64,000 nucleotides of DNA from Nannobrachium achirus. Lineage: Eukaryota; Chordata; Actinopteri; Myctophiformes; Myctophidae. Position 1 is the first letter of the stretch. Each line of letters begins with the position of its first letter. A program made the position numbers and the translations under genes. Below the pieces are notes generated by a model, which saw nothing but the letters and a program-made list of their open reading frames with translations, was not told where the DNA came from and ran no database searches. The stretch lies in assembly GCA_963921795.1 (NCBI GenBank), contig OY997661.1, forward strand, positions 41,327,966 through 41,391,965, read 5' to 3'. Below, piece after piece: positions 670-62,444 of this stretch.

Positions 670-3600
670 GCGCATGGGAGAACAAGGTCAGCAGCCGAGA
701 GAAGAGGCAGCAGCGTAGAAAGGACAAGGGCCCCGAGGATTCTGGGAGCCCAGGAACAGTGGAGGCCCCCGTGGGACACGTGGAGCCACCTGCAGCCCCA
801 GCAGCTGCAAACAGCAGAAAGCAGAGGTAATCAAACCTTTTGAGCTTATCCACGAGTTTCCTACGCCCCATAGTGCATTGCGCAAACGTCTGCATCGAGG
901 TTCCGCCGCCGATTTACAAGCTCACAACGGGTTGCATCTGCGACGCGACGTGACCTTGTATGTTTGCTGTTAAACCCGGAAGTTTGGTCCTGATAGTCTC
1001 CAGTAAACTCCTGCGGAAACTTGTGGATAGATCTGATCAGCGTTCAGCGTGCTTTAGGATTTGATGCAGCCAGTGATCAAAAATTGTGCAAATAGCAGCT
1101 CTACAAGATCACAGTGCATTTCAGTGTCACATCTCAATGCATCACATCACAATATGTCGTGAACTTGTAGATTGGCTAGTTTTGCCCAACACCGTCTTCC
1201 GAATGCGGACGACGTGCGTCAAAACAGCCGCCCCCATTATTTTTAATGAACATACCCCACGCTGGGGGCGTCAGACACATGCAGGCTTGCGTTACGCGTT
1301 GTCGCGCGGTGAAAAATGTCTGTAGCCAGTGTGTGTACCCCATTAGTAAGCATAAAATTGGCTTAATTGACTAATAAATAATAGATTTAAACATATAAAA
1401 CAGTCTCCTCTTGGATCTAACTCATATTAAGCTAGCAATGACATAATCAAATCTGTGTATAAATAATAATGGAAGTCTGCACAACAACCTTTTACTTTTA
1501 ACATAATCAAATCTGTGACCTCACAGTACAGACATCAACCAGCACCACTATGTGAACAAGATACATCATATAAACATAAAGAAACAAGTTTATTCTATAT
1601 TTAGCACATTTTATTAAACTAAATGTATCACTCACCTTCTGTTTGATGGACAGATATTTTGGAGGGCCTAGTAATTACTTGTGATGGTCGGCTAAATTAA
1701 GAAATAAAAAGCAATACGCTTATATTGTTACTGTCGGACAGAAGCCTCGTATCTCCAAGTTTCAAATTTGTAATCTTTTTCGCAAAGCATAGCCCTGCTT
1801 CATCATACAAGGCCGTCGCACAAAGGTTGTGAAAACAGCCGATCTACAAGCACACAACGCCTTGCGGTGCGAGGCGTTGTGTGCTTTTCACTAGTTTAAC
1901 TCATTTTTAAAATGATAAATACAACACAAATGGTTTTGGACATACACGGTTTCCACCCGACAACAACGATATTATGTATTGTTGTTGCATCAATTGTGGT
2001 ATGGATAAAGACTCAGATTGTCTATTGTTCCTGCTGTCCACCTCTCCAGCATCTTCTGGTTGGAGAGAGGAGCCCTCGGTCAACGGTGGAGGGTGGACCG
2101 AAGGGGAGAAGTGGAGCGCTGGGTCCGCAGCATCGCGTCACAGAGCCCAGCCTGAGAGCCAGTGCTGGGGACAGGAGACACAAGGTATTGCCCGCATCTG
2201 GACTTTTTTTGCTCGATATGTTGTTGATATGTTACGTTGGTTCTATCTGTGATCATACAGTCACCGTCGGGCAGAAACCTTGTATCTCCAAGTTTCATAT
2301 TTGTAAACCTTTTCGCAAAGTAAAGCACTGCTTCATCATACAAGGCCATCGCACAAAAGTAGTGAAAACAGCTGATCTACAAGCTCAGCGAGGCGTTGTG
2401 TGCTTGTAGATCGTCTGTTTTCACTAGTTTAAATCACTAGTTTAAGTCTGTGCTTGTAGATCGTCTGTTTTCACTAGTTTAAATCATTATAGCAGGGGCG
2501 ACTGTAGCTCAGGAGATAGAGCGGGTTGGCCTTTGATCCATGGGTCAATGATCCAAATCCCGGCTCCTCCTGTCTACATGTTGAAGTGTCCTTGGGCAAG
2601 ACACTGAACCCCGAGTTGCTCCCTGTGAGCTGGTTGGTGCCTTGCATGGTTTCCACCGCCACCGGTGTATGAATGTGTGTGTGAATGGGTAAATGTAATG
2701 CACATTGTAAAGCGCTTTGGAATGGATAAAAGCGCTATATAAATTGTGGTGTATAGACCCGAACCAAGACACAACACAGTAAATTCGTGCAAAGCCACCT
2801 GGCACTTTTATTCACATTTGGCAAAAACAGGTTTAGAAACTTTGCAGAAACGCTGGAGTCAAACCAAATTATGCTTTTCAATAATGTTAAATAATGTTCC
2901 CGGTTTTCTGAAACGAAATGTCAATTCTTTTTTTAGGGGGTATGGGTTCTTCTTCCTTGGCCGGGCCAGGTAAGGTAGGTAGGGATTTCAGAATGGGCAG
3001 CCCAGCGTTAGTGGGTTTTTAGAACGTTGCCTCGTTAACAACAGGCGCTCCTCCGGGCCTCCCGTGCGCTTCTCCTCTGCGCTTCGGGGTTATTGTTAGT
3101 GATGCTCCATGGTTGCCTACATGAGAGAGAGACAGGGCAATGTCAATACAGGTTTCACAGTGAGAACAATGGAAAGGTATTAGTGGTGTGCTCGCCTCAC
3201 CGCCAGAATGCACGTCTGTCTGCGTGGAGAACCAGAGAGCGACTGAGGGAGAGTGAGCAGCCTTTTGAGGTGTGGTTCTATTCAGAGCGCGCAGGTGTGG
3301 AGACATCAGGCTGATGGAGGAGGTAGGTGGGCAGGTACCGTCCCTCGATGACGCTGCCTAGACGGAGGTGTGGTCCTCTCGGGCTCACTCTACCCTCATA
3401 CCACTCTCTCTCTGTGGAGACATGCCTACCTGGCGGTGGTCCTCGCAGCGAGACACCACATACCTCCCTCCAATGATTGCGGCTCGGGGCGCAAGCTTCG
3501 CGAACCTCCTCTTCGTTCTCATGTACCCTGGAGAGCGCATCGGCATGCGGGATTTCCTTTCCAGGCCTGTGTTCCACTGTGTAACGGTAGCTCTGTAACT

Positions 3601-6600
3601 CAAGAAACCAACGGGTTATCCGGTCATTCTTGTCTTTATTTTTCGACATCCATTTTAGTGGGGCGTGATCGGTTATCAGCGTGAACTGGCGGCCCCATAA
3701 ATAATAGCGTAGATGGTGGATTGCCCATTTTACCGCTAGAGCTTCTTTCTCTATAGCAGAATAATGCAGTTCATGTTTTAACAGCTTCCTGCTCGTGTAC
3801 AATATGGGATGCTCGTTACCGTCCCAAAGCTGTGCCAACACTGCGCCCAAACCTGTGCCGGACGCGTCAGTTTGGAGGATGAACGGTCTGGTGAAGTCGG
3901 GCGCTTTCAGCACCGGTTCTTCACAGAGGGCCAGTTTGAGCGCGCGGAACGCCTCCTCTGCTTCTGGTGTCCAGCGTAGCTGATGAGGGAGCTTCTGCCT
4001 GGTGAGGTCGTACAGAGGGGCTGCCACAGTAGAAAAGTTATTTATGAACTTTTGGTAATATGATATGAGGCCAAGGAACGATTTTAACTGTTTCTTCGTA
4101 ACCGGCCGGGGCCAATCCTTTATTCTTTCCACCTTCCGTGTTTGGGGTTTCACGCAGCCGCGTCCGATGGTGAAACCTAGATAGTCAGTCTCATCCAAAC
4201 CTAGGCGGCACTTTTTAGCGTTAGCCGTTAACCCCGCTCTCCTCAGCGCCCCAAGCACCGCATCGATGTGTAGCAAATGTGCGGACCAGGAGGCGCTATG
4301 TACCACAATATCATCCAGGTAGGCCGCTGCGTATTCCCTATGGGGCCGTAGCACTTGGTCCATCATGCGCTGAAACGTAGCCGGCGCGCCATGTACCCCA
4401 AACGGTAATACAGTGTATTGGAATAAGCCCTCCGGCGTGGAAAAAGCAGTTTTTGGCCTGGCTTGGTCTGAGAGGGGCACCTGCCAATATCCTTTGGTTA
4501 GGTCCAAAGTACTGACAAAGCGGGCAGGCCCCAGTCTCTCTATTAGCTCGTCAACGCGCGGCATGGGATATGCGTCAAACTCCGATATTTCATTTAGCTT
4601 TCTGAAGTCGTTGCAAAAACGCAGGCTGCCGTCGGGCTTGGGCACGATTACTATTGGACTGGACCAGGGGCTATATGACTCCTCTATAACCCCTAACTGC
4701 AACATACTCTGTACCTCCGTTTTGATTGCTTGTCGGCGCGCCTCTGGGATGCGGTACGGCCGCAGACGGATCACCTTACCGGGCGGTGTATGGATCTCGT
4801 GCTTCACCACGGCGGTGCGTCCGGGGACGTCGGAGAAGCGGTCCAAATTCCTTCCTAGGAGCTCCTTCAGATCCTGTCTCTGTGCGGGGGAAAGCATTTC
4901 TCCTAAGGGCACAGGTGGTAAAGTTGGTGAGGCACGGGCAGTGAACAGCGCGGGCAGCGGAGGGGCGTCAGCAGCGTGCCATTTCTTTAGCAAATTTATA
5001 TGGTAAATTTGTTCCCCTTTCCTCCTCCCCGGCCTTCGCACCCGATAGTTCACTGGGCCTGTGCGCTCGATAATTTCAAACGGGCCTTGCCATTTGGCCA
5101 GAAATTTGCATTCGTTACTGGGAACTAAAACGAGCACTTTTTCCCCCAGATTAAATTCCCGTACCACGGCGTTACGGTTGTACAGACGGGCCTGTTCTTT
5201 TTGGGCCTTCTCCAAATGTTCCCGGACCATGGGCCAGATTTTCTTCGCCCGGGCCTGCAACTGCTCAATGTGCTCAATGACACTACGGTGGGCCGAGGGC
5301 TGTTCCTCCCAGGCCTCCTTGGCTATATCGAGGAGGCCGCGGGGCCTTCTGCCATAGAGGAGCTCAAATGGAGAGAAGCCAGTGGAGGCTTGCGGGACTT
5401 CACGTAAAGCGAAGAGGATATAGGGGAGAATTTGGTCCCAGTCGCGGCCGTCCACATCGATTAATTTCTTCGTCACACTTTTGACGGTTTTTATCTCCCT
5501 CTCAGCCAAACCGTCAGTTTGCGGGTGAAAGACTGAGGTCCGCACCCGTTTTATTTTTAGCCATTGGTAGAGTTGCACTAGGACCCGTGACATAAAACAA
5601 GTGCCCTGATCCGTAATGATTTCGTCCACTATACCCACCCGGGTGAACATCATAAAAAGCTCATGAGCGACCGCCTTGGCAGTGGCGGCGCGGAGGGGGA
5701 TCGCTTCGGGGTACCGTGTGGCATAATCTACTATTACTAAAATATATCGGTGACCCCTTGCAGACTTTGGTAGTGGGCCTGCGATGTCCATGGCTATACG
5801 TGAAAAGGGTGTTTCAATTATAGGCAGGGGGATGAGCGGGTTTCTCTGGACGGGCCGCGGAGCGCACTTCTGGCACGAGTCACATGCCCGGCAGAAATCT
5901 TCCACGGCTCTTTTAACCCCCGGCCAGTAGAACCGTGCTAGGATGCGTTCATAAGTCTTCTGCACGCCTAGGTGGGCGCCCAACCGGTGAGTATGAGCTA
6001 AATGTAACACCCGTGACACATATGACTTGGGGACCAGTAACTGTTCCACTATTTCACCCGCTCTGTCAACGACACCCCTGTACAATAGCCCATTCTTAAC
6101 AGAGAAATGAGGGGAGGAAAGTTGACTCACCCCGTCACAGAGCTTTCCGTTCACGGTAGTCACTTGTCGGCGTGCCATCTCGAGGTTTGGATCGCTCCAT
6201 TGCTGGGTCGCGAACTCCCCACGACGTGGAGCGGGGCTGTTGTCATTTATGTGTAGCTCGGCGAAGGTGTCTTCGGCGGTCCTCGTCTCGGACGGACTGG
6301 CGCTGTGGGCAGGCGGCGGTTCCTCCTCGCTGCGGTCTCCGCCCCGGTGGCGCCCTTCTCCGGGGGAGCTCTCGCTCGGACTGGCATCGCTGGGGTGGGG
6401 ACTAAACACCGGGCACGCCTCGTATCCTGCCGAGGGCCGGGTGCGGGTCCTGGGCCGGCGTCTTCGGGGCCGAGGGCCGGCCGTCAACCCGGGGTTCCAA
6501 TATTTAGCGAACAACGTGTTGTCGGCACCAATGATCAACGGCACCGGGAGATTTGGTACGACACCCATGTGTAGCACGGCTTCTCCCCTGGGGGTCCGGA

Positions 6601-9600
6601 CCCTCAGCGTGGTCACTGGGTAGTGGCGGAGGTCCCCATGGACACAGGTGACCGGGACGGTGTCAGTGGAGAGTGGGCCAGCGAGCTCAGCGTGGATGAG
6701 GGAAACGGCGCTGCCCGAATCAAGTAGTGCATGGGTGTCGATTTCTCCAATCTTCACTGGTATCTTCGTGTGTTGGCGGGGGCCGGGGCCCGTGAGAAGG
6801 CAGGCGCGGGCACCCTCGGAGGTGGCGGCGCTGGCCATGTGTACGTCTCGGTCCCGGTCCGGGCAGGACCACGATATGTGATCTAATTTCCCGCAGACGT
6901 AACACCTTCTTGCGGACGCGGGCCGGCCGCTCCTCTCTGGAACGGTGGAGCGGGAGCGGGGCGGAGAGTGTGTCGGCGCCGGGAGGCGGGGACGGTCTCT
7001 CCCCGCCCGATTCTCGGCGATTCCTCTCATCGGCTCACTCCTCGAGCCCCGTAGCATTTCAGTGCTAACCTGGTGGTTCTCAAGCAACGCCACCAGCGCG
7101 TCCACCGAAGTGGGGCTTACTTGGGCGGCGTATTTGCGTGCATCTGGCGGCAACGACCGTATGCATCGGTCAATAACAATTCTGTCTATACATGGGGGAT
7201 CTCCTCCCGTAGTAAGCCAGCTGTGGGCCAAGCGTAGCAGAGCGGCGACCTGTTGTCTGGGTGGCAGGGATGGGTGGAAGCTCCAGGTATGGTACCGCTG
7301 TGCCCGGGCGGGCAGGCTGTAGCCTAGGCTGGCTAGTATGGCCTCCCTGAGGCGTCGGAAATCACGGGCCTCTGCGAGCGGGAGGTCCCGGCACACCCGC
7401 TGGGCCTCGCCGCTGAGAAAAGGAGCAACAATATTTCCCCATTCAGCCACCGGCCATCTCTCACGGGCCGCGGTACGTTCAAAGAGTTCTAAATAGGATT
7501 CAATGTCATCCTCGGGGGTTAACTTAGTGAGTACTGCGCTGGGAGGTCGGGTTTCATTATTTTCTCTTTCCATTTTTTTAACGAGCTCTTTCACTGCGCT
7601 CTGTAACTCGTTCTGGCTGCGGAGCAGCGCTGCCACGGCTTGCTCCATGGTGCGTTTTGGTGGGGATCTGAGAACTATACCCGTAGTTCTCCACCAATTG
7701 TGGTGTATAGACCCGAACCAAGACACAACACAGTAAATTCGTGCAAAGCCACCTGGCACTTTTATTCACATTTGGCAAAAACAGGTTTAGAAACTTTGCA
7801 GAAACGCTGGAGTCAAACCAAATTATGCTTTTCAATAATGTTAAATAATGTTCCCGGTTTTCTGAAACGAAATGTCAATTCTTTTTTTAGGGGGTATGGG
7901 TTCTTCTTCCTTGGCCGGGCCAGGTAAGGTAGGTAGGGATTTCAGAATGGGCAGCCCAGCGTTAGTGGGTTTTTAGAACGTTGCCTCGTTAACAACAGGC
8001 GCTCCTCCGGGCCTCCCGTGCGCTTCTCCTCTGCGCTTCGGGGTTATTGTTAGTGATGCTCCATGGTTGCCTACATGAGAGAGAGACAGGGCAATGTCAA
8101 TACAGGTTTCACAGTGAGAACAATGGAAAGGTATTAGTGGTGTGCTCGCCTCACCGCCAGAATGCACGTCTGTCTGCGTGGAGAACCAGAGAGCGACTGA
8201 GGGAGAGTGAGCAGCCTTTTGAGGTGTGGTTCTATTCAGAGCGCGCAGGTGTGGAGACATCAGGCTGATGGAGGAGGTAGGTGGGCAGGTACCGTCCCTC
8301 GATGACGCTGCCTAGACGGAGGTGTGGTCCTCTCGGGCTCACTCTACCCTCATACCACTCTCTCTCTGTGGAGACATGCCTACCTGGCGGTGGTCCTCGC
8401 AGCGAGACACCACAAAATGCACCATTTACCATTTATTTTTTAAATGATATATACAAAACAAACGGTTTTGGACAAGGTTTCCAACCGACAACGACGATTT
8501 GCTGTATGATGATGTTTATTATGCCTCTGTATGTTGTACTGTTCTTAAACTGCTGTGTACAGCACTTTGGTACAACAAAAGTTCTGTTTTTACATGTGCT
8601 CTAAATAAACTTGATTTGATTTAAATTAATTAGATTAATTCATTCAGAGAACAATAACAGCTCCAATGTGCACAATAGACTCATATCTTACATAGTAGTG
8701 TATGACTATGAAGCATTGGAATGTTGTCCTTATGTCCACTCAGTGTTTTTGACACCACATGCTGCTGACTTCTACCGGTACGTGGTAAATCTAGTGCGGT
8801 AGCACCCCCTTCTGGCAGGTACTTGCTACTGGGTAAAGACGGTTTAGCAGAGACTGCTCTTTTCAAAGAATGCAAGGTTTGATTGATTGATTGATTGAAG
8901 AATGTATTAGAAGTTTGCAATAGAAAAAAGTACAGTTTCATGAGAGTACAAATCACTGGTACAAGGTCAACTAAAAGGAGATCCTAGAAAGCCGAGGCTT
9001 ATTTCCACAGAAACCACACTTTAAGTATCTCATATAAAGGTTATTTTCTAGCTATGAAAGGTAACAAAATACATAAAGTCAGGCGAAGTTTATCACCATT
9101 TTCCTCCATTGGTTTTTGTTGTACTCATTAGGTATTACTCTTTCTGGGTTGCACATTGTTTTAAACAAATACAGGCCTTCAAAACAATTACAGGCCTTCA
9201 AAACAATTCAGAGTTGAGTTCTTAAATCGAAACTTTCATCAAATATACGTTTTTCAAATAGATTAGAACATTTTGAACTTTTTTGACGTGTTGTGACAAC
9301 ACCGATCTTGTGTGCAAACCAAACAATGACCCTGTTGTCCTCTTTGCACAGGGACGTGGAGTGGGGTTGATGGCAGGATGAAGGCTGATCTCAACCCTGT
9401 GTCCTTCTCCATGCTGGGGTTGAACGCCACCGGTAGGAAATGGTGATTTCATTATCTTCTTCGGTGCCATATTTAAAGTGGGACCTCTTATATTGCCGTT
9501 TCGCCAACAAAGGGTTAAAAAAATAGTGTGCACGCTGGTGCACAAATTCGTGCACAGATCATGCACTATGCATGTGCATGCTTTTCACAGCTTTCAAAAA

Positions 9601-12600
9601 AAAAATCCGCTTGGAAATCCGTTCAGGCATTCAGGAGAAAGGAACCCTTATGTTTTCTTCAAATGTAAACAAACATGGCTGCCATGTTTGAAAGATGGGG
9701 TTGGTATGGGGGTTAAACATGCAATTTCGCGATCGTGATCATGCCTAGTACACTGTTGGAGGTCCAAACATTTTTTTTTTTTTTTATTTTTTTTAAAGAC
9801 GTCCAAAAGACGTCTGGCAGGGAGGTCCATAGTTAAAAAGACGTTTTTATTATAGAAAACGTCTTTTTTGGCAGGGTAGGTGTTATCAGGTGGTGTGTGA
9901 TTCAAAACAATTTTAGCTTGTTGCATTTCTTTGATATCTGAAATATCTGTCTTTTAGGCTTCAGACACTGTTTTGCTGTTTGTGAAAATGCACCAATCTT
10001 ACCTGTTCAAATTCCTGGTGTAAACATGACAGCTGAAGTGGTTATTGAACAACACCCCCTCAGATGTTATATATTTTATTGCTTAAATATTTGGTGAAAT
10101 ACAGATTTAAGTCGCTGATAGCTTCTCTCGCCCTCTCTCTCTCTCTCTTTCTCACTTTCTCTTTTTCTCTCTCTCTCTTTCTCTCTCTCTCTCAGAGCCC
10201 ATGTCTCACCCTATTGACCTTCAGTGGGACAGACATCCTGATGTTAGTGATGAATGGTCTGGTTTCAGTAAGTGTTCAACCATCAGTTGAATATTCATAT
10301 GTAAAATTACTGAACAAGCATTCTGTCAGACACTGGTTGGTTATGATTGCTAAATAGAACCATGTACACTGTTTAGTGAGACAATTAGGAGGAAAAACAA
10401 GAACGTAAAGTTAAATATCAATATGAGACACGGCAGGCTTGGAAATAGTACATTTTGTAGGATGTCGATAAGAGGTAATATCCATTGTCTGTATTATGCT
10501 AATATGCTGCTGATGTGGCGTTCCAGATGGGATGGCAGCTGTGGACCCCAGTTCAGACTGGAACGCCCCAGCAGAGCACTGGGGCAATTATGAAGAGCCT
10601 CCTGTATTGGTGACGCCAGCCGCACCACCCAAGGAGCAGGCTGCCCCTCTCAAGGTCTGGCTGGCACTCTTTGCTATGTTTATCATTCGCTTTTTAGGGC
10701 AGTGTTTCTCAAACGTTCAAATTTCAAGGTCTCCCCTTACTCAAAAGAATTGTACAAAATGGAACCAAATGAACCCTAACAGGTTCATTTGGTTCCATTT
10801 GTACACTGTCAGAGTTACAAACTTGTAGGGGTCAATTTAGACCCCCCTAAAAGAACCCACAAGAGTCCCTGGAATCAACTTTGAGAACCACTGTTTTAGG
10901 GGATTCAGTGTGTCCTCCTTAACCATGTGAACGTCTTTAAAATAACATGGGCATCTACCATCATTATCAAATAGTTGATGTTGGTTCTGGCCGCTAACTG
11001 ATTTTAGATCTCGCTAGTGATACTACTTAAACTTTGTTGCCAAATATTGATCCTGTCATTCATTTATTAAGTAATTTAACTACTTACGTTAAAATACACA
11101 CTGTGGCCCATGGTTACTTGTTCAGTAACAGAGGTCTCCACATCTCTCCAGATCTTTGTGGGCTTCTGACTTCTGATTGGGTTATTTTGTTGTTCTCTTT
11201 GTGGCCCAGGTGTCAGAGGATGAGAAGGAGGTTGAGGATCCTTCGGAGGGGACAGCCAAATCCAAGAAGAAGAAGAAAAAGAAGAAGAAGGCAGAAGAAG
11301 ATGTTGCTGCTGTTACTCAGGCAAGAAAAAGAGACCCAAATTCCATATCCATTTGAACCTTAGGCTAACATTTGGTCAAACATAGCAGATCTACAAGCTT
11401 GCAACGAGTCAAGTTTTGACTGTAGATTGGCTATTTTCTGTGAAGATATTTAGTGTAGAATGAAAAGCAAGAGGCGGGCCTAGAATAGAACCCCTGGTAT
11501 TCCGCTCAACTAAGACAACAATGTAACAATGTCCCTGTGAGATAAGGGTAATTTTTATGGATAAAAAAAGGGTAATTTTTATGGATAAAAAGCTGTTTGG
11601 ACACTGCTGCGTTTTTTCGTTGTGAAATGTGTTTTTCAGGACAAGGAGAGAGAGAGAAAGATAGAGAGAGCAAGGGAGCCAGTGGTCTGGAAACAAATAT
11701 GAAACGGGTGGCAGTGTGAGGTTGATTTCTTTATTGACGTGCTCCGAAATTCGCTCCTATATTCGGACCAAAAAACGCAGCAGTGTGCAACGACCTTTAC
11801 TGTTAACGAATTGTTGTGTCTGTTTTTTTTTAGACTGTAAGTGAGGTGTCCCACGAAGCTCCTCCCATCATGCCCTCCTCTCAGAGTAAGTCTCCATGGA
11901 TTTATGTACTCTTCCTGGTGGTAACTTATGTTTTGCCAACCTAGGGCTGGGCGATATGGTGATTAAATATCGTTGAGACGATACAATGTCTCCACAATAT
12001 TATCTCCCGATTTAGAGAGTCTTACTGGTGATACAATGAGGAAGCCTCATAAAAAAATCCTGTTGAATTGTTCGTTCAGAGATTCATTGCGGTATTCAAT
12101 TTAAACCAGCAATTTCTAAATTAGTAGTTCTCAAACTTTAAAATGTCAAGGTGTCCCCTACTGTCAGAGTTACATACTTGTAAGTGTCAATTTAGACCTC
12201 CCAAAAGGAACCCAGAGAGTCCCTGGACCCCACTTTGAGGACCACTGGTCTAAAACTCCTTTTTCTTTGAGTCTTTGTTACCTTGTATATTTGGTTGTTC
12301 TGTAAATAACCATAAAAGCCAACGTGAAAAAGAATCGCGATAAGATTGTGTATCGTGATACCGTTTGGAAAAATATTGTGATATTGTATTTTTCCATATC
12401 GCCTATGCCAACCCCTATTTCTTTCTGAAATTACACCTATGAATACAACTTTGATGTCCTTTGTCCTTCTGTCCTGTTTCCCTTCCCTCATTCTTCCCTT
12501 CCTTTCATTTCCCTTCCTTCATTCCCTCCTTTCTGTCTTTCTTCACTTCCTCCTTTACTTCCTATGTTCCTTCTTTCTAATTTGTTCCTTTACTTCCTTC

Positions 12601-43486: not shown

Positions 43487-43970
43487 ATTCCTTTTCCTTC
43501 CTTCTCCTTTCCAATATACCTAAGTCAACTGTTGCATCTATTGGCATTGGCACTGTTGGACTAAACTCCAGTTTCTCAATTCCTATTTCTTCTGCTCTTT
43601 TCCTTGCTGTCCATCCAAAGTTATTTATTTCCTTTTTTTCCTTTTCCCAGCTAGGCTTTAATATCTCTTTTGCTGGATGGTCCTCCTTATGACCCTTTAA
43701 ATTTACCCAATAATTGATTGACAACTGCAATCTTCTCAAATCTATGGGCATGACCCCCATCTCCACCTGTAACGCTGCTGTAGGTGTCGATTTAAAGGCT
43801 CCTAGTCTCAATGCCTGGTATTGAATATTATCTAACTTCTTCAGGTGTGTATCTGCTGCTGAACCATACACAACACTCCCATAATCTATTATGGCCCTAA
43901 TTAATCCATTATAAATGGCCTTTAACGCCATTCTACAGTATCTGCCCCCCATTCCTTTCCCACTAGGCAC
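43440..43970 (-). pseudogene. LINE ORF2 segment after reverse transcriptase
   Basis: Continues the thumb and connection region (AIYNGLIRAIIDYGSVVYG, LDNIQYQALRLGAFKSTPTA) in another frame from the 43,922-46,363 part. Confidence 0.8.
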
Positions 43971-46330
43971 CTCATTATATTTAGAACCTTTTTACACTTC
44001 TCCTCAACTTTCTTGATGTGTATGTTCCATGTTAATCTTTCTTCAAACCATATTCCTAATAACTTAAACTGCTTGACTCTTTCCAGTTCTTGTTTGTATA
44101 TTTTTAATTTAACCTCATCTCCAACTCTTTTCCTAGTAAAGAACATTGTTTTTGTCTTTCCTACTGAAAACTTAAAACCCCATCTATATGACCACTCTTC
44201 GACTTTATTAATCGCTTTCTGTAACTTCTTTACTATAAATTGGACATTTCTTCCCCTCTTCCAAATTGCCCCATCATCTGCAAACAATGAGAAGCCCATA
44301 CCCCTCTCTATTCCTTTAAACACATCGTTTATCATAATCGAAAATAATAGTGGACTAATTATACTTCCTTGTGGGGTCCCATTTTCTATTTTAAATTTAC
44401 CTGATAAGCTCTTTCCCACTCTCACCTGTATAGACCTCCCAATTAAAAAATCTTTAATCCATCTATATATTCTCCCCTTTACCTCTAGTTTCCTTAGTCT
44501 AATCAATAATCCTTCTACCCACATCATGTCATATGCTTTCTCAATGTCAAAAAATACTGCTACTACACTTTCTTTGTTTATCTGTGCCTTCCGAATTTCA
44601 TGTTCCAGACATAAGGTTGGATCCATTGTGTTCCTTCCCTTCCTAAATCCACTTTGATATGTTGATAAGTATCCTTTACTCTCCATATAATATGTTAGTC
44701 TTTCATTTATCATTTTCTCCATTATTTTACATATGTTAGACGTTAATGCAATAGGCCTATAATTCTCTGGGTTTGACTTATCTTTCCCTGGTTTGGGTAT
44801 TGGTACAATAACTGCCTCCTTCCAACTCTCTGGCAATTTCCCTTCCCTCCAAACTCTATTGTATAGTTCCAACAATGTTTCCTTCGATGCTTCACTTAAA
44901 TTATTTATCATTACATAGCAAATCTGATCCTTCCCTGGTGCTGTCATCTTTGTTTTCCTTAAGGCACGATTCATTTCTGTCATTGTGAACATTTTATTAA
45001 GTAAATCTTCGCTGTCTTCCTCCTCCTGCATTAAACCTTCATTTTCCGCTACTGTCACTTCCCTTCCTCTCTTCCCTTCCTCACTAATATTTCCTGAACT
45101 ATGTACTTTAACAAAAGCCTTTGCCAGCATCTCCCCCTTTTCTTCCTCCTTCACTGCCATTATTTCCCCCTCCTTCAAAACTGGATACCCATACTCTCTC
45201 TTAATACCATTCATTCGTTTAATCATGCTCCAAATCTGTCCTACTTCTGTTTCCCTTCCCACAGAATTACAGAAATTCCTCCAACATGCTCTCCTTGCAT
45301 TTTTGATACTTCTTCTAACACTTGCTTGGCTTCTCTTATATTCAATAAGGTTCTCAAGACTATGATTTCTTTTTAACATTCTGAATGCTTTATTTCTAGC
45401 CTTAATTGCCTCACCACACTCTTTGTTCCACCAAGGTACCATCCTTTTTTTGTTTTTCCCTTCTTTCCTCTTAATTGATTTCTCTGCTGCCTCTACCATC
45501 GCTCTGCACACAGACATATTTAGCTGGTTAACTTCCTCCTTTATATCAATTTCCTCCATTTCTTTCTCACTTATTTTCTTAAACTCTTCCCAGTCTGCGT
45601 TATTAAATGCCCAATTCCTTATTCCATCTGTCTCATACTTTTCCATTGTCAACCCTACTTCAGTTATTATGGGATAGTGATCACTTCCAACAGCTGTTCC
45701 TTTCCTTACTTCCCATGTACATACCCCTGCCAAGGACTCTGTTACTAATGTAAGATCTAATGCTGACTCTACTCCATTGCTGACGTTTATTCTTGTTCCC
45801 ACCCCATTATTTATACACACAATTCCTTTATTTTCCATGAACTCCTCCATAACCTTCCCATTATCATCCGTTTCCCTCCCTCCCCATAGCGTGCTGTGGG
45901 CATTAAAATCACCACACCATATGGCATTACGTCCTTGTCCCACTCTCTCCAATTCCTCCAACTTAATCTTCTTGCATGGATTGTACACATTTATTATTAT
46001 CATTTTCCTCTTATTAACCCAGACCCCAATAATAATGATCTCTAACGTTTCCTCATTCACTGGTAGGGCTACTCTTTCAAATGATACCCCTTCCTTAATA
46101 AATGTTGCACATCCCCCTGCCCTCTGTTTGTTCCTATCCTGTCTCACTGAATTATATCCCACAATTCTAAAGTCCAATTTTGGTTTCAGCCACGTTTCTT
46201 GTATACAAATAATTTCTGGTTTAACTTCTAACTCTTCTATATAACTCTTAAATTCTTGTCCGTTTGCAATCAAACTTCTGGCATTCCACTGAAGGATAAG
46301 GAACACCATGGCTATAATATTACTTAACAT
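43922..46330 (-). pseudogene. LINE ORF2: endonuclease and reverse transcriptase
   Basis: About 800 codons. The endonuclease domain opens with LQWNARSLIANG and includes CIQETW, CGDFNAHSTLWGG and GSDHYPI. The reverse transcriptase has PIPKPGKDKSNPENYRPIAL, FFDIEKAYD, GTPQGSIISPLLFS and FADD. The start ATG (46,330-46,328) overlaps the ORF1 stop in CATGTTAAGTAA, so reinitiation after ORF1 is possible. It loses frame near 43,922-43,970. Confidence 0.85.
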
Positions 46331-47546
46331 GAACAGGTATACTCTTCTTCGTGAGCTCTTCATTCACCATCTCTACACTTAGCTCTTTTATGTTTAAGAA
46401 CTCTGCTGCTGTTTCCACTATAGTTTCTATCCTTTCCGTTCTGGTTGCCTGCTGCATAACTACATTTATAACTTTCGCCATGAATAGTACAAAGTTGGCC
46501 TTATCCACTACTAACGTATTCTTATTCACAGCACACCTATGCGAGCACACTACCACTGGTTGTGGAGGAGGTTCAGCAGCGATCACTTGTGCAACGGCAC
46601 CACCTTGTGGTCTGTTTGCATGCTTAATTGCCTCTGCGTATGATACTTTGTTTTGCACTTTGTATTCTTGCACTTCTTTTGCTTTAATCTGCGCTTCACA
46701 TCCTCGGTAAGCCGCACTGTGCTCTCCCCCACAATTACAGCATTTCACTTTAGCCTCTTCCTCGCAATTTCCAAATTCGTGTTCACCTGCACATCTGGCA
46801 CATCTGGGCTTCGCTCTGCAATGCCCTGCTATATGTCCAAATCTTTGGCATTTATAGCACCTTAATGGTCTGGGCACATATTCCCTGACCGGGTAACTCA
46901 GGCATCCAATCACAACTTTTTCCATCATGGTTCCCTCAAACTGGAGAAGTATAGACAGACTCTCAACTATTTTTCCTTGGTATCTTGTGGATAGTCTTTT
47001 TTCCACCGTCACTCTGCCTCCGCCCTTGATTTCTTTTCTGATTTCATCTAGGCTTATATCTGTTGGTACACCTGTAATTACCCCCTGTATCTTCTTGTTT
47101 ATCCCAGGGATATAACTTTTGATTTGCACTTCTCTCAGGGTTTTCATTTTCAATATCTTCTCTTGCTGGGCCTTGTTAACTGTTTCAATGAGCATCTTTC
47201 CTTTACTCAAGAACCTTGCCTGTTTAGTAGGACCAATTTCTTTCCTGATAGCTTTTGACAATGTAACTGGATGTAACTTGCTACTCGACCCTTCTCCAAA
47301 CTCCACAATCACTTTCCACACTTCTTCCTCTTTCTTTCTTGCTTTTTTCGCCTCATTCTGCCTTTCTTCCCCACTGTCACTTTGACTTATATCAGAAATC
47401 TTTCTTGACTTCTTTTTTCCATTTGTCACTTCTTTCCATTCTCCCTCATCTTGTTCATCCATATCTGAATCTCCCATTTCATAAGGACTTGCACCCAGCC
47501 TCCTTCTTTCCTTCCAACTATCTTTGCGGCTGCCTTCTCGAGTCAT
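46320..47546 (-). CDS. LINE ORF1, zinc-knuckle protein
   Basis: 408 codons, open throughout. A lysine-rich acidic N-terminus is followed by an RRM-like middle (about 80-230) and CCHC knuckles (RCYKCQRFGHIAGHC; RCARCAGEHEFGNC; KCCNCGGEHSAAYRGC). RNA-binding ORF1 of this layout is usual for I-group elements. Confidence 0.82.
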   Translation of the reverse strand: MTREGSRKDSWKERRRLGASPYEMGDSDMDEQDEGEWKEVTNGKKKSRKISDISQSDSGEERQNEAKKARKKEEEVWKVIVEFGEGSSSKLHPVTLSKAIRKEIGPTKQARFLSKGKMLIETVNKAQQEKILKMKTLREVQIKSYIPGINKKIQGVITGVPTDISLDEIRKEIKGGGRVTVEKRLSTRYQGKIVESLSILLQFEGTMMEKVVIGCLSYPVREYVPRPLRCYKCQRFGHIAGHCRAKPRCARCAGEHEFGNCEEEAKVKCCNCGGEHSAAYRGCEAQIKAKEVQEYKVQNKVSYAEAIKHANRPQGGAVAQVIAAEPPPQPVVVCSHRCAVNKNTLVVDKANFVLFMAKVINVVMQQATRTERIETIVETAAEFLNIKELSVEMVNEELTKKSIPVHVK

Positions 47547-59452: not shown

Positions 59453-62444
59453 ATGAGTTGGAGCTTCATAACACGGTTCTTGGATGAGATATCCAACCAC
59501 AGCACCTTCGTGGGGAAGGTGTGGCTCACGGTGCTACTCATTTTCCGCATTGTGCTGACCGCGGTTGGAGGTGAGACTAGGGGTGGGCGATATGGAAAAA
59601 TAAAATATCACGATATTTTCCCAAGCTGTATCATGATACACGATTTTATCACGATTCTTTTTCACGTTGGTTTTTATGGTTATTTTTCAAGGTACTTGAC
59701 AAAAACTAGACTCTCTGGGTTCCTTTTGGGAGGTCTAAATTGAACTTTACAAGTCTGTAACTCTGACAGTATACAAATGAAACCAAATGGACCCGTAAGG
59801 GTCCATTTGGTTTCATTTGTATACTGTCAGAGTCAAATGGAGACCTTGACATTTTAAAGTTTGAGAACTACTGATTTAGACCAAAATGCAGGTTCAAATT
59901 GAATTCTGCAATGAATGTCTGTATTAATGATTAAACAGGATGTTTTACAAGGCTACAGTACGATACCTCTGAAAATGCATATCGTGGAGACATTGTACCG
60001 TCTCAACGATAATTATCACCATATTGCCCACCCCCAGGTGAGACCATCTACCACGATGAACAGAGCCAGTTCACGTGCAACACTCAGCAGCCTGGATGTG
60101 AAAACGTCTGCTACGACGCCTTCGCTCCACTCTCCATGGTCCGCTTCTGGTCATTTCAGGTGAGCTGTTTTTTTATACATAAAACATGCTGGAAATCTTT
60201 AGGCCTTTAACTGGTTGCCATGGGGAATATTATAGGGCTTTTTAACAAAAGTATCACTTACAGCAGTGGTTCTCAACCTGTGGGACGGCCCGGACGGGAC
60301 CCTCGGGAGTCCCCAAATTATTTTGTGGGGTCCCCAGATGATTAACTTAATATGCAAATAGTTTTCTCACTCAACAGTAAACAAACCAACATAACGTTTA
60401 AGTCTATAGAGGGCATCTGCACATTTCTAAAGTGACAATTTAAGGACTTTTTAATGGCTCTAAAATGACAAATTAAACATTGACCAAATTGTCAAATATT
60501 AGTGGCAGAAACTGTGAAAATAGCCGATCTACATGCTCACAACGCCTCACAACTGTGAGCCTGTAGATCTGTTATTTTCACAATAGAACCGTGTATTGTT
60601 ATAGAAAATGTAATGCCTCAACTCTTAGTGCACTAGATGCAGTATTTGAATTTGCTGGTTATTTAGACCTGGCATTAAAATAAAATGGGGTTTTAAGTGG
60701 TTAAAAGAATAATTACAAATAATGTTTTTACACTAAACATGATTTTATGATTTGTCTATCCAGGTCATCATGATTACCTGGCCCACCATCATGTACCTTG
60801 GTTTTGCCATGCACAAGATCGCCCGCATGGGGGACAGCGACTACAGGCCCCTCAACCATGGCGGGCGCAGGAGGATACCTATTGTGAACAGCAGGCCGGA
60901 CCGGGACTACGAGGATGCGGATCTCGACGAGGACAATCCCATGATGGAGGAGGAGATTGAGCATGAGAAGGAGAAGGAGCCACCTGCAGCAAGTAAGATG
61001 AACATTCTCAACTTGAGTTGAAGTTGCTAATTGTCAGATTCCACTGGTTTTACCACTGTAATCCTGGCATCACCATTTAAACCAGGGGTTTTCAAAGTGG
61101 GTGACGGGGAACCCTGGGGTGTCGCGACGGCAGTCCAGGGGTGCCGCGAGATCATTTGATAGTATTTGGAATTTATTTGGACACCTGAAAGAATATTTAG
61201 TATCATTTTAAACTTGAAGTACAAAGTTATTTTCAGTCAGTTCTAACCAAAATGGCTATAATCTCAACGGTTTCCTTGCAACATAATCACTAAAATATTG
61301 TCACTGTCGGGCAGAAACCTTGTATCTCCAAGTTTCAAATTTGTACGTCTTTTGGTAAAGCAAAGCCCCGCTTCATCATACAAGACTGTCGCACAAAACT
61401 AGTGAGAACAGCCGATCTACAAGCACACAAAGCCTCGCGATGCGTGCTTGTAGATCTGCTGTTTTCACTCGTTTATTTTATAGATGATAAATGCAAAACA
61501 AACGGTTTTGGACATACAGGGTTTCCACCCGACAACAACGATATGCTATAAATATAAGGTGCTGGGAGTGAAAATTATAATGTAGGGGTGCCTCGGATAA
61601 AAAAAAAATGGGGTGCCCTGAGACAAAAAAGTTTGGGAACCCCTGTTCTAAACATTAATGTAAAACGTCACAACCAGATTGCGATAAAGGTGAATGAAAC
61701 AACTTGGTGGCATTATCCAGGTCAGATGTTTATGATCACGTGTCTGTCCTTCAAGGTGGTGCAGCGAAGCATGATGGACGGCGTCGGATCCTGCGTGATG
61801 GACTGATGAAGGTCTACTTGTTCCAGCTGGTGTCGCGTGCATCCTTCGAGGCGGCCTTCCTCTTTGGCCAGTACACCCTGTATGGCTTTGAGGTGCTGCC
61901 CTCTTTCATCTGCAAGCGCGACCCCTGCCCACACACTGTTGACTGTTACATCTCACGACCAACAGAGAAGACAATCTTCCTCCTGATCATGTATGTAGTC
62001 TCTTTCCTCTGCCTGCTCCTCACCTGCCTCGAGATGGTTCACCTGGGCGTAGGGGGCCTTCGCGACACCTTCCGCCGCCGCGCCACTCTCAGGTCGAACC
62101 CGCGACCTCCTGCCCCGTCCACACGGCGCCCGCTCGCCATGGCCCCTCCGGGTTACCACGCGGTCACCAAGAAGGATCACTGCAGCAAGCTGAGGGAGGG
62201 AGGGTCCCTGGGGGACTCGGGCAGGGCCAGCCCACCGCCCAGGGAGCTGGAGAGGCTGCGACAGCACATGAAGTTGGCCCAGCAGCACCTGGACCTGGCC
62301 TACCCGATGGAGGAGGGGGGGAGCCCATCACGTAGCAGCAGCCCTGATGTCAACGCTGCAGCGCAGGCTGCCGCTGATCAGAACCGGCTCAACTTCGTCC
62401 ATGACGAACTCAGCGATAAAGGTACAGCTAATATTATTAACTGA
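59453..62444 (+). CDS. Gamma-group connexin (Cx43.4/Cx45-like, gjc4 type)
   Basis: A four-pass gap junction protein of 382 residues. Coding exons are 59,453-59,570, 60,038-60,159, 60,764-60,992 and 61,765-62,444. The N-terminus [18 protein letters not shown] and TM1 are followed by extracellular loop 1 with [12 protein letters not shown] (C-x6-C-x3-C), TM2, an acidic cytoplasmic loop ([17 protein letters not shown]), [10 protein letters not shown]3, loop 2 [12 protein letters not shown] (C-x4-C-x5-C, gamma-group spacing) and TM4. The sequence is closest by memory to fish Cx43.4 (gjc4). Most vertebrate connexins have an unbroken coding exon; here three introns interrupt it and the first is a transposon. 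The 3' end is uncertain: AAAG|GTACAG at 62,421 could be a donor to a further exon instead of the stop at 62,444. Confidence 0.9.
59578..60036. mobile_element. hAT MITE that constitutes connexin intron 1
   Basis: TAGGGGTGGGCGATATGG to CCATATTGCCCACCCCCA, 459 bp, with 8-bp duplication GGTGAGAC (59,570-59,577; 60,037-60,044). Same family, same inner modules and nearly the same length as the copy at 11,942-12,405. The intron is 59,571-60,037. Confidence 0.93.
60264..60600. mobile_element. CAGTGGTTCTCAACC-family hAT in connexin intron 2
   Basis: Starts CAGTGGTTCTCAACCTGTGG, holds CCCCAGATGATTAACTTAAT and a palindrome at 60,513-60,582. The right terminus is missing. Confidence 0.75.
61083..61645. 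mobile_element. CAGGGGTTTTCAAAG-type hAT in connexin intron 3
   Basis: Ends CAGGGGTTTTCAAAGTGGG and GTTTGGGAACCCCTG with diverged 8-bp duplication ATTTAAAC/TTCTAAAC. It contains a GTCGGGCAGAAACC-type MITE (about 61,300-61,545) at the same internal position as the 18,097 copy, with a palindrome at 61,400-61,469. Confidence 0.85.

Follow-up and report, generated by a model that had tools for sequence, protein, structure and literature searches.

Can the origin of a vertebrate intron still be read from the DNA in which it lies? Vertebrates seldom gain introns, and the sequence from which a new intron came can usually no longer be recognised. A stretch of 64,000 nucleotides from the fish Nannobrachium achirus, hereafter called the window (C24:41327966-41391965 of the 1.66-Gb genome; coordinates of features in it are window positions), raises this question with a connexin gene whose first coding intron consists of a miniature inverted-repeat transposable element (MITE) and the equivalent of one copy of its target site duplication (TSD). 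We consider it very probable that a non-autonomous hAT-like element created this intron 1 by inserting into a connexin exon; the family to which it belongs would act as a low-yield Introner, that is, an intron-making element.

Coding exon 1 (59453..59570, + strand) starts with ATG and encodes MSWSF...VG followed by a single G. The left TSD, GGTGAGAC (59570..59577, +), overlaps its last nucleotide and is the source of the splice donor G|GTGAGAC. It is followed by the 459-bp hAT-like MITE (59578..60036, +), TAGGGGTGGGCGATATGG...CCATATTGCCCACCCCCA, which has imperfect terminal inverted repeats and a long internal inverted repeat at element positions 188-263 (59765..59840, +), recognised from self-complementary hits and an RNA fold. 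As RNA, the ends of the element pair and the internal repeat forms a long hairpin (fold z -10.1). The right TSD (60037..60044, +) is identical to the left one; together with the last A of the element it gives the acceptor CAG|GTGAGAC, and a second donor-like site remains in it. The predicted intron 1 (59571..60037, +; 467 bp) comprises 7 bp of the left duplication, the element and the first G of the right duplication. Its borders read G|GTGAGAC...CCCCCAG|GTGAGACC, its acceptor sequence is CCCACCCCCAG, and coding exon 2 follows at 60038..60159 (+). When intron 1 is removed in silico, the exons read GTT GGA GGT GAG ACC ATC (VGGETI); unspliced, the reading frame hits a stop at 59743. A first-pass annotation, made from the letters of the window, had described an intron built from the 459-bp element and one copy of its 8-bp duplication, with a donor from the left copy, an acceptor from the terminal CA plus the right G, a restored VGGET and stops inside the unspliced element, and each of these points is borne out. 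We infer that intron 1 is removed by splicing and that the duplicated site was recruited as both donor and acceptor.

The same annotation had pointed out that most vertebrate connexins are coded in one exon; this gene is not otherwise a one-exon connexin: intron 2 (60160..60763, +), coding exon 3 (60764..60992, +), intron 3 (60993..61755, +) and coding exon 4, which runs through the stop (61756..62444, +), complete it. The four joined exons yield a stop-free protein of 385 aa with a connexin domain at residues 2-254 (Pfam PF00029, 311 bits). Among the best 120 of 2857 database matches, the nearest proteins are fish entries named gap junction gamma-1-like (71% identity), and by this similarity the gene is classed as a gamma-type (GJC-type) connexin. 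An origin of introns 2 and 3 from elements was considered and rejected: there is no duplication at their borders, and they are apparently common to open reading frames (ORFs) attributed to other fish.

Protein search of the genome located a further copy of the gene upstream, at C24:41238311-41240182, with start codons 149,046 bp apart. In this empty-site copy (S; the window copy is W) exons 1 and 2 are uninterrupted (C24:41238311-41238614) and read GTT GGA GGG GAG ACC, and introns 2 and 3 are present. The insertion seen in the window, including its duplication, is also present in C16:4839117-4839784 (C, the chromosome 16 copy) and in C24:41255821-41256489 (L, the copy at C24:41.256 Mb); the right duplication of L has been altered since insertion. 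All three carriers (W, C and L) keep an open frame through exons 1 and 2. The insertion site is also unbroken in the one-exon connexin paralogues L031-L033, of which L031 shows 89% identity to Muraenolepis, Lota and others. With L031 as outgroup, exons 1 and 2 hold nine derived sites common to C and L, two common to W, C and L, and none common to W and S, next to 17 private ones. A likelihood tree groups S with the outgroups, outside W, C and L (UFBoot 91). For intron 2, identity is 97.8% in the pair W and C and 90.6% or 92.8% in the pair W and S, depending on which of two alignments is used; intron 2 of L contains unrelated sequence, so that its percentages are not comparable. Since both the rooted sites and the divergence of intron 2 put S outside the carriers, S most likely branched earlier and the element entered the lineage from which W, C and L descend, a gain rather than a loss.

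Other fish were searched with the first 119 residues as query; 97 proteins were returned and 36 of these inspected. Fourteen ORFs (P0226-P0231, P0233-P0235, P0237-P0241; source lgn for 13 and jgi for one) are unbroken through VGGE and enter unrelated tails past ...FQV, apparently intron 2, while other proteins start at exon 3. Judging from these tails and from similarity, the 14 ORFs are probably genomic sequences of fish orthologues. As they are unbroken at VGGE and acquire their tails after FQV, it seems that introns 2 and 3 exist in the orthologues and intron 1 does not. Among S, the 14 ORFs and L031-L033, as far as the check was run, no element-free relative has an intron at the same codon. 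The recent gain proposed in the first-pass annotation is thus supported as a gain, on the strength of the empty site in S, the rooting, the 14 ORFs and the unbroken L031-L033, with its age refined: the insertion predates the split of the three carriers.

The order of events can be turned around if the intron is taken as ancestral to all four copies and precisely lost from the one at C24:41.238 Mb. S is indeed closest to W in raw exon identity (96.2% in exon 4), and one exon site groups it with C and L. Loss nevertheless has to overcome the rooted sites and intron 2, both of which leave S outside, and the putative ORFs of other fish and the one-exon paralogues, which have no intron either; moreover, since the duplications carry GGT where S has GGG, precise loss would have to be accompanied by one more substitution in S. 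We regard it as most improbable, and the intron would still be element-born under it, with only its age being different. Gene conversion from a carrier paralogue, instead of descent, is also an unlikely way for the intron to have reached W. The high identity of W and C in intron 2, though their exons 1 and 2 are only 88-91% identical, would suit conversion, as would site 218 in exon 2, found in W and C alone. However, the elements of C and L have deletions in common that are absent from W, W has deletions of its own, and quicker evolution of the exons on the C/L branch accounts for the difference between exons and intron without any conversion. A gain in the common ancestor of W, C and L, followed by descent, remains the reading that we adopt below.

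The element is one of many. A search of the genome gave 2821 candidates, the best 40 of which were scored; 39 besides the window copy match at 88-94% identity. Family statistics were taken from 29 copies picked by similarity (L002-L030). Duplications of 8 bp that match at 7-8 of 8 positions lie exactly at the element ends in 20/29 copies. Left ends read TAGGGG in 23/29 and CAGGGG in 2/29, and right ends read CCCCTA in 23/29 and CCCCCA in none, so that the right end of the window copy, whose ends had been called family-typical, is not fully typical. From the 29-copy consensus the window copy diverges by 3.9% and the members by 1.1-5.1%. The 8-bp duplications and the C/TAGGG ends are the reason for assigning the family to the hAT superfamily of MITEs, which it appears to fit; Ac/Ds ends are given as C/TAGGGATGAAA in the accessible part of PMC3260210. 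A second family copy lies in the window on the - strand (11942..12405), opposite in orientation and shortened at its right end. The first-pass annotation had paired it with a duplication of its own, and the flanking TGCCAACC (11934-11941 and 12406-12413) is indeed exact.

The terminal CA that supplies the acceptor of intron 1, in place of the usual TA, is common to W, C and L. Among 100 listed of the 121 places in the genome that read CGCCCACCCC(C/T)AGGT, seven have a CCCCCA end; the terminal T-to-C change that creates the CAG acceptor is a minority variant in the family. Donors were scored with a splice-donor matrix, which gave 9.6 for the left duplication and 10.5 both for the leftover site in the right duplication and for the donor of intron 2. 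Because the leftover donor is the stronger one, mis-splicing such as the skipping of exon 2 is possible, and competing splicing from the right duplication is plausible from these predicted strengths.

We considered whether the insertion was a one-off event and rejected this, as other family copies seem to have made introns likewise. Family copies with AGGT directly before them were found at 18 places, of which W, C and L make up three, a connexin on C15 one and L095-L108 the remaining 14. In these 14 no restored host frame was recognised, and Pfam, run on 2/14, gave no match. The C15 connexin (L078, C15:56570328-56571514) has the TSD GGTGACGT and reads ATG GAG|GTGACGT...CCCCTAG|GTG ACG TTC. 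Its joined ORF is a 239-aa connexin (309 bits, domain positions 1-224 of 225), and its donor GTGACG is weaker, at 6.2 on the same scale. A paralogue at C22:41505179-41505479 is contiguous across the insertion site (88%). Five other connexin copies on C15, arranged in tandem, have a gap of about 414 bp at this site, a gap known by its length alone.

Genome-wide, 16 places match CCCACCCCYAGGTRAG, including W, C and 12 that were examined (L083-L094); the remaining two lie at C9:12972578 and C16:12280163. In six of these 12 GGTRAG copies (L083, L085, L089, L092, L093 and L094) recognisable host coding sequence begins exactly at the duplication; L084, L086-L088, L090 and L091 gave nothing above the Pfam cut-off, L086 and L087 being judged by eye alone. 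In a C2H2 zinc-finger gene (L085, C3:59509500-59510290) the element is 548 bp long, reversed and bordered on both sides by an exact GGTAAGAG, and splicing at AG|GT restores ...YQCDEC-G-KSFYYRQGFNNHKKTH (CDEC-G-KSF...HKKTH). At L093 (C19:39594090-39594880) the duplication matches at 7/8 positions and the left end of the element is lost; both flanks are open and joining at AG|GT restores the frame. Its DLC1-like identity comes from a 22-residue PDB match (2.9e-4), and a paralogue at C8:35149408 is contiguous over residues 50-114. Family copies appear, from these junctions, to have formed introns in at least three further genes, namely the second connexin, the C2H2 zinc-finger gene and the DLC1-like gene.

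Four other cases are not counted as new introns, as coding sequence is seen on their right flank only. These are a GnRH-receptor-like gene (L083; PDB 1.9e-15), a neurotensin-receptor-like G protein-coupled receptor (L094; 4.4e-11) that a motif suggests to be GPR39-like, a SLITRK1-like gene (L092; 2.9e-13) and a GIMAP/AIG1-like sequence (L109), whose Pfam match of 0.025 is below the cut-off and for which no PDB match was found. The stretch in L092 lies inside open frames of 705-956 codons in six paralogues, and this copy may be broken.

As a control, we took the 58 ends of the 29 copies chosen by similarity, 36 of which have an open frame of at least 45 codons touching the element. The scan covered 31 ends (24 copies) and 51/69 frames, with low-complexity and masked frames left out. 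Three marginal Pfam matches (0.002-0.008) turned up at the scanned ends, and a bias of insertion towards genes was not seen in this small test of 31/58 flank ends of 24/29 copies. Twenty (C/T)AGGT copies without RAG (L109-L128), with frames from 11 of them scanned, gave the GIMAP-like L109 as the single, weak junction case; L125 has an ordinary exon about 60 bp off and L126 a marginal coiled coil. When any evidence is accepted, host coding sequence is found at 6/12 GGTRAG copies vs 0/29 (Fisher 2e-4), or at 5/12 with the DUSP26-like L089 taken out (0.001). When both groups of copies are judged alike (Pfam <=0.001), the counts are 4/12 (p 0.005) or 3/12 (p 0.02). The enrichment at GGTRAG is real-looking but modest, and the argument is carried by the four events with both flanks. 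Taken together, we judge it likely that this is a working vertebrate Introner family, with introns in at least four genes, in both orientations, some of which have outlasted gene duplication, and that it acts through selection of sites and not through targeting.

The events at the connexin locus can be put together as follows. The element would have inserted at GTTGGAGGTGAGACC, in one of the several exons of a gamma-type connexin, and the transposase would have duplicated GGTGAGAC. The left duplication would then serve as splice donor (GAG|GTGAGA), and the terminal A of the element with the first G of the right duplication as acceptor ((C/T)AG|GTGAGA), preceded by the pyrimidine-rich CCCACCCCC. 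Splicing at these sites would excise the element along with precisely one of the two duplication copies, so that the original reading frame and codons return, whatever the phase. The gene would have stayed functional, and later duplication would have carried the intron to two more loci. For the family as a whole, the four well-supported events suggest that a copy landing in coding sequence of the G|GT type is tolerated as an intron. Since both ends read ...CCCCTA outward, TAG is offered in either orientation whenever the duplication starts with G. Copies elsewhere in exons would break their genes and be lost, and such a filter of survival may explain the site bias of the copies that make introns.

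This scheme requires a living gene. The opposite view, which we hold to be quite unlikely, is that the element broke the gene, that it is not efficiently spliced, and that the copies W, C16 and C24:41.256 Mb are pseudogenes in an expanding and decaying family. No RNA has been seen, on C24 several copies are incomplete or evolve fast, and exon 3 consists of short pieces in C and in L (L063), all of which would agree with decay. On the other hand, all four window exons are open with splice sites and stop intact, exons 1 and 2 are open in the three carriers, and W and S, which differ in length at four places, each keep a frame that is open as far as the stop they share. The dN/dS of W vs S is 0.23 over 382 codons (bootstrap 95% 0.12-0.39), a ratio that merges the time before and after insertion and that argues, from sequence comparison, against a dead gene. 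Had W been unconstrained since its split from the C16 and C24:41.256 Mb copies, the probability of an intact frame would be 0.01-0.24, depending on the rates assumed. Between the latter two copies, exons 1 and 2 differ at 21/240 sites, mostly with amino-acid change (dN 0.106, dS 0.050), and intron 1 differs at 0/410 aligned sites (Fisher 5e-10 vs exons). Exons that change around an identical intron suggest selection on the protein of a gene that already carries the intron; conversion restricted to the intron would be the alternative. In this pair (L063 and C16:4837754-4839784) exons outpace introns, with a dN/dS of about 2.1 in exons 1 and 2, which suggests either diversifying selection or intron conversion.

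Several observations count against an element-born, functional intron and a family that makes more of them. The neutral-decay estimate is merely suggestive, and the mixing of pre- and post-insertion time in the dN/dS of W vs S blunts that ratio as well. Neither a transcript nor a close orthologue of the window gene was seen among the best 120 of 2857 full-length matches, where identity reaches at most 71%. Rooting sites are few. Three of them run counter to the tree (227 unites S with C and L, 218 unites W with C, and 166 unites W, S and C), and another five are of unclear polarity. The donor-like site in the right duplication outscores the left one with the matrix used. At family level, the 31 scanned flank ends gave no host Pfam match <=0.001, and most copies seem to lie outside coding sequence. 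The DLC1-like L093 has no Pfam match, and the DUSP26-like L089 was rejected as a new intron: many DSPc genes, including its neighbours on C13, are split near profile positions 67-74, which points to an old intron, and the element adjoins the acceptor.

How does an element-born connexin intron relate to known systems? Maize Ds belongs to the hAT superfamily, and Ds elements are reportedly spliced as introns, the spliced cases being mutant plant alleles. The connexin element resembles Ds in its removal by splicing and differs from those alleles in being a retained intron common to vertebrate gene duplicates. It further shares with Ds the 8-bp duplications and the ends C/TAGGG...CCCTA, as described in the available portion of PMC3260210. 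The layout in the window also matches the model of a transposon inserting into AGGT, with the duplicated AG|GT serving as donor and acceptor (Yenerall and Zhou 2012, PMC3443670); the review table for that route, as far as the accessible text goes, names Oryza, Drosophila, Oikopleura and Zea and no vertebrate. Closer in host are the NTE-1 introns of notothenioid slc26a2 (PMC12357937), which likewise derive from an inverted-repeat element in a fish coding exon with gt-ag in direct and inverted repeats. According to the part of that report at hand, NTE-1 differs in its 4-nt direct repeats and tgt...aca ends, is not hAT-like, is found in one gene, and its intron was later lengthened by another element.

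Introners account for 27,563 introns in 175 of 3,325 genomes; no more than two animal or land-plant groups have them, of which copepods are named (Gozashti et al. 2022, PMC9860276, in the text available). Similar to the Introners described there, the present family is of the DNA type with terminal inverted repeats, draws its splice sites partly from the duplication, occurs in several unrelated genes and leaves coding unchanged. Unlike them, its host is a vertebrate, few of its many copies make introns, and it shows no sign of gene targeting. Judged by sequence, two features expected of an Introner are found here: introns at new positions in unrelated genes, and splice sites taken from element or duplication with coding unchanged (W, the C15 connexin and L085/L093). 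For vertebrates, the accessible part of the 2022 survey gives no pattern of Introner gain, and Introner action in them is unreported there (PMC9860276). A survey of human intron gain is, in its available sections, centred on intronisation, with methods not designed for element-born introns (PMC12124190). We found no earlier account of a vertebrate Introner family in the open-licence literature. The mechanism is known, introns born from DNA transposons being on record for algae, maize and notothenioid slc26a2; what appears to be new is that a hAT-like family does this to more than one gene of a single vertebrate, empty sites and duplicated carriers lying side by side. Source element, duplication, empty sites and carrier paralogues are all found in one genome, so that the passage from transposon to intron can be followed nucleotide by nucleotide. 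If the reading is true at family level, a common vertebrate transposon type can act as an Introner, and what limits it would be survival at donor-like G|GT sites and not the need for a special element.

Other features of the locus and of its paralogues deserve mention. Introns 2 and 3 of the window gene are common to the empty-site copy, and each contains another repeat (60263-60620 and 61083-61660); by eye these resemble different hAT-type elements with CAG(T/G)GGTT-type ends, the one in intron 3 reading CAGGGGTTTTCAAAG...CCCCTG. Elsewhere in the window, long ORFs at 3278-7759 (-) and 43922-47546 (-), also judged by eye, correspond to a retroelement whose sequence resembles integrase and reverse transcriptase and to a LINE-like element. 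Large tandem arrays of connexin-like exon-4 copies, about 54-69% identical to the window gene, occupy C24:41263575-41313996 and C24:43450030-43585505. Finally, a Cx45-like gene (L062, C18:17458500-17461900) is split past ...YYDEQ by about 1.3 kb of repeat-rich DNA, at a position that differs from that of the window intron.

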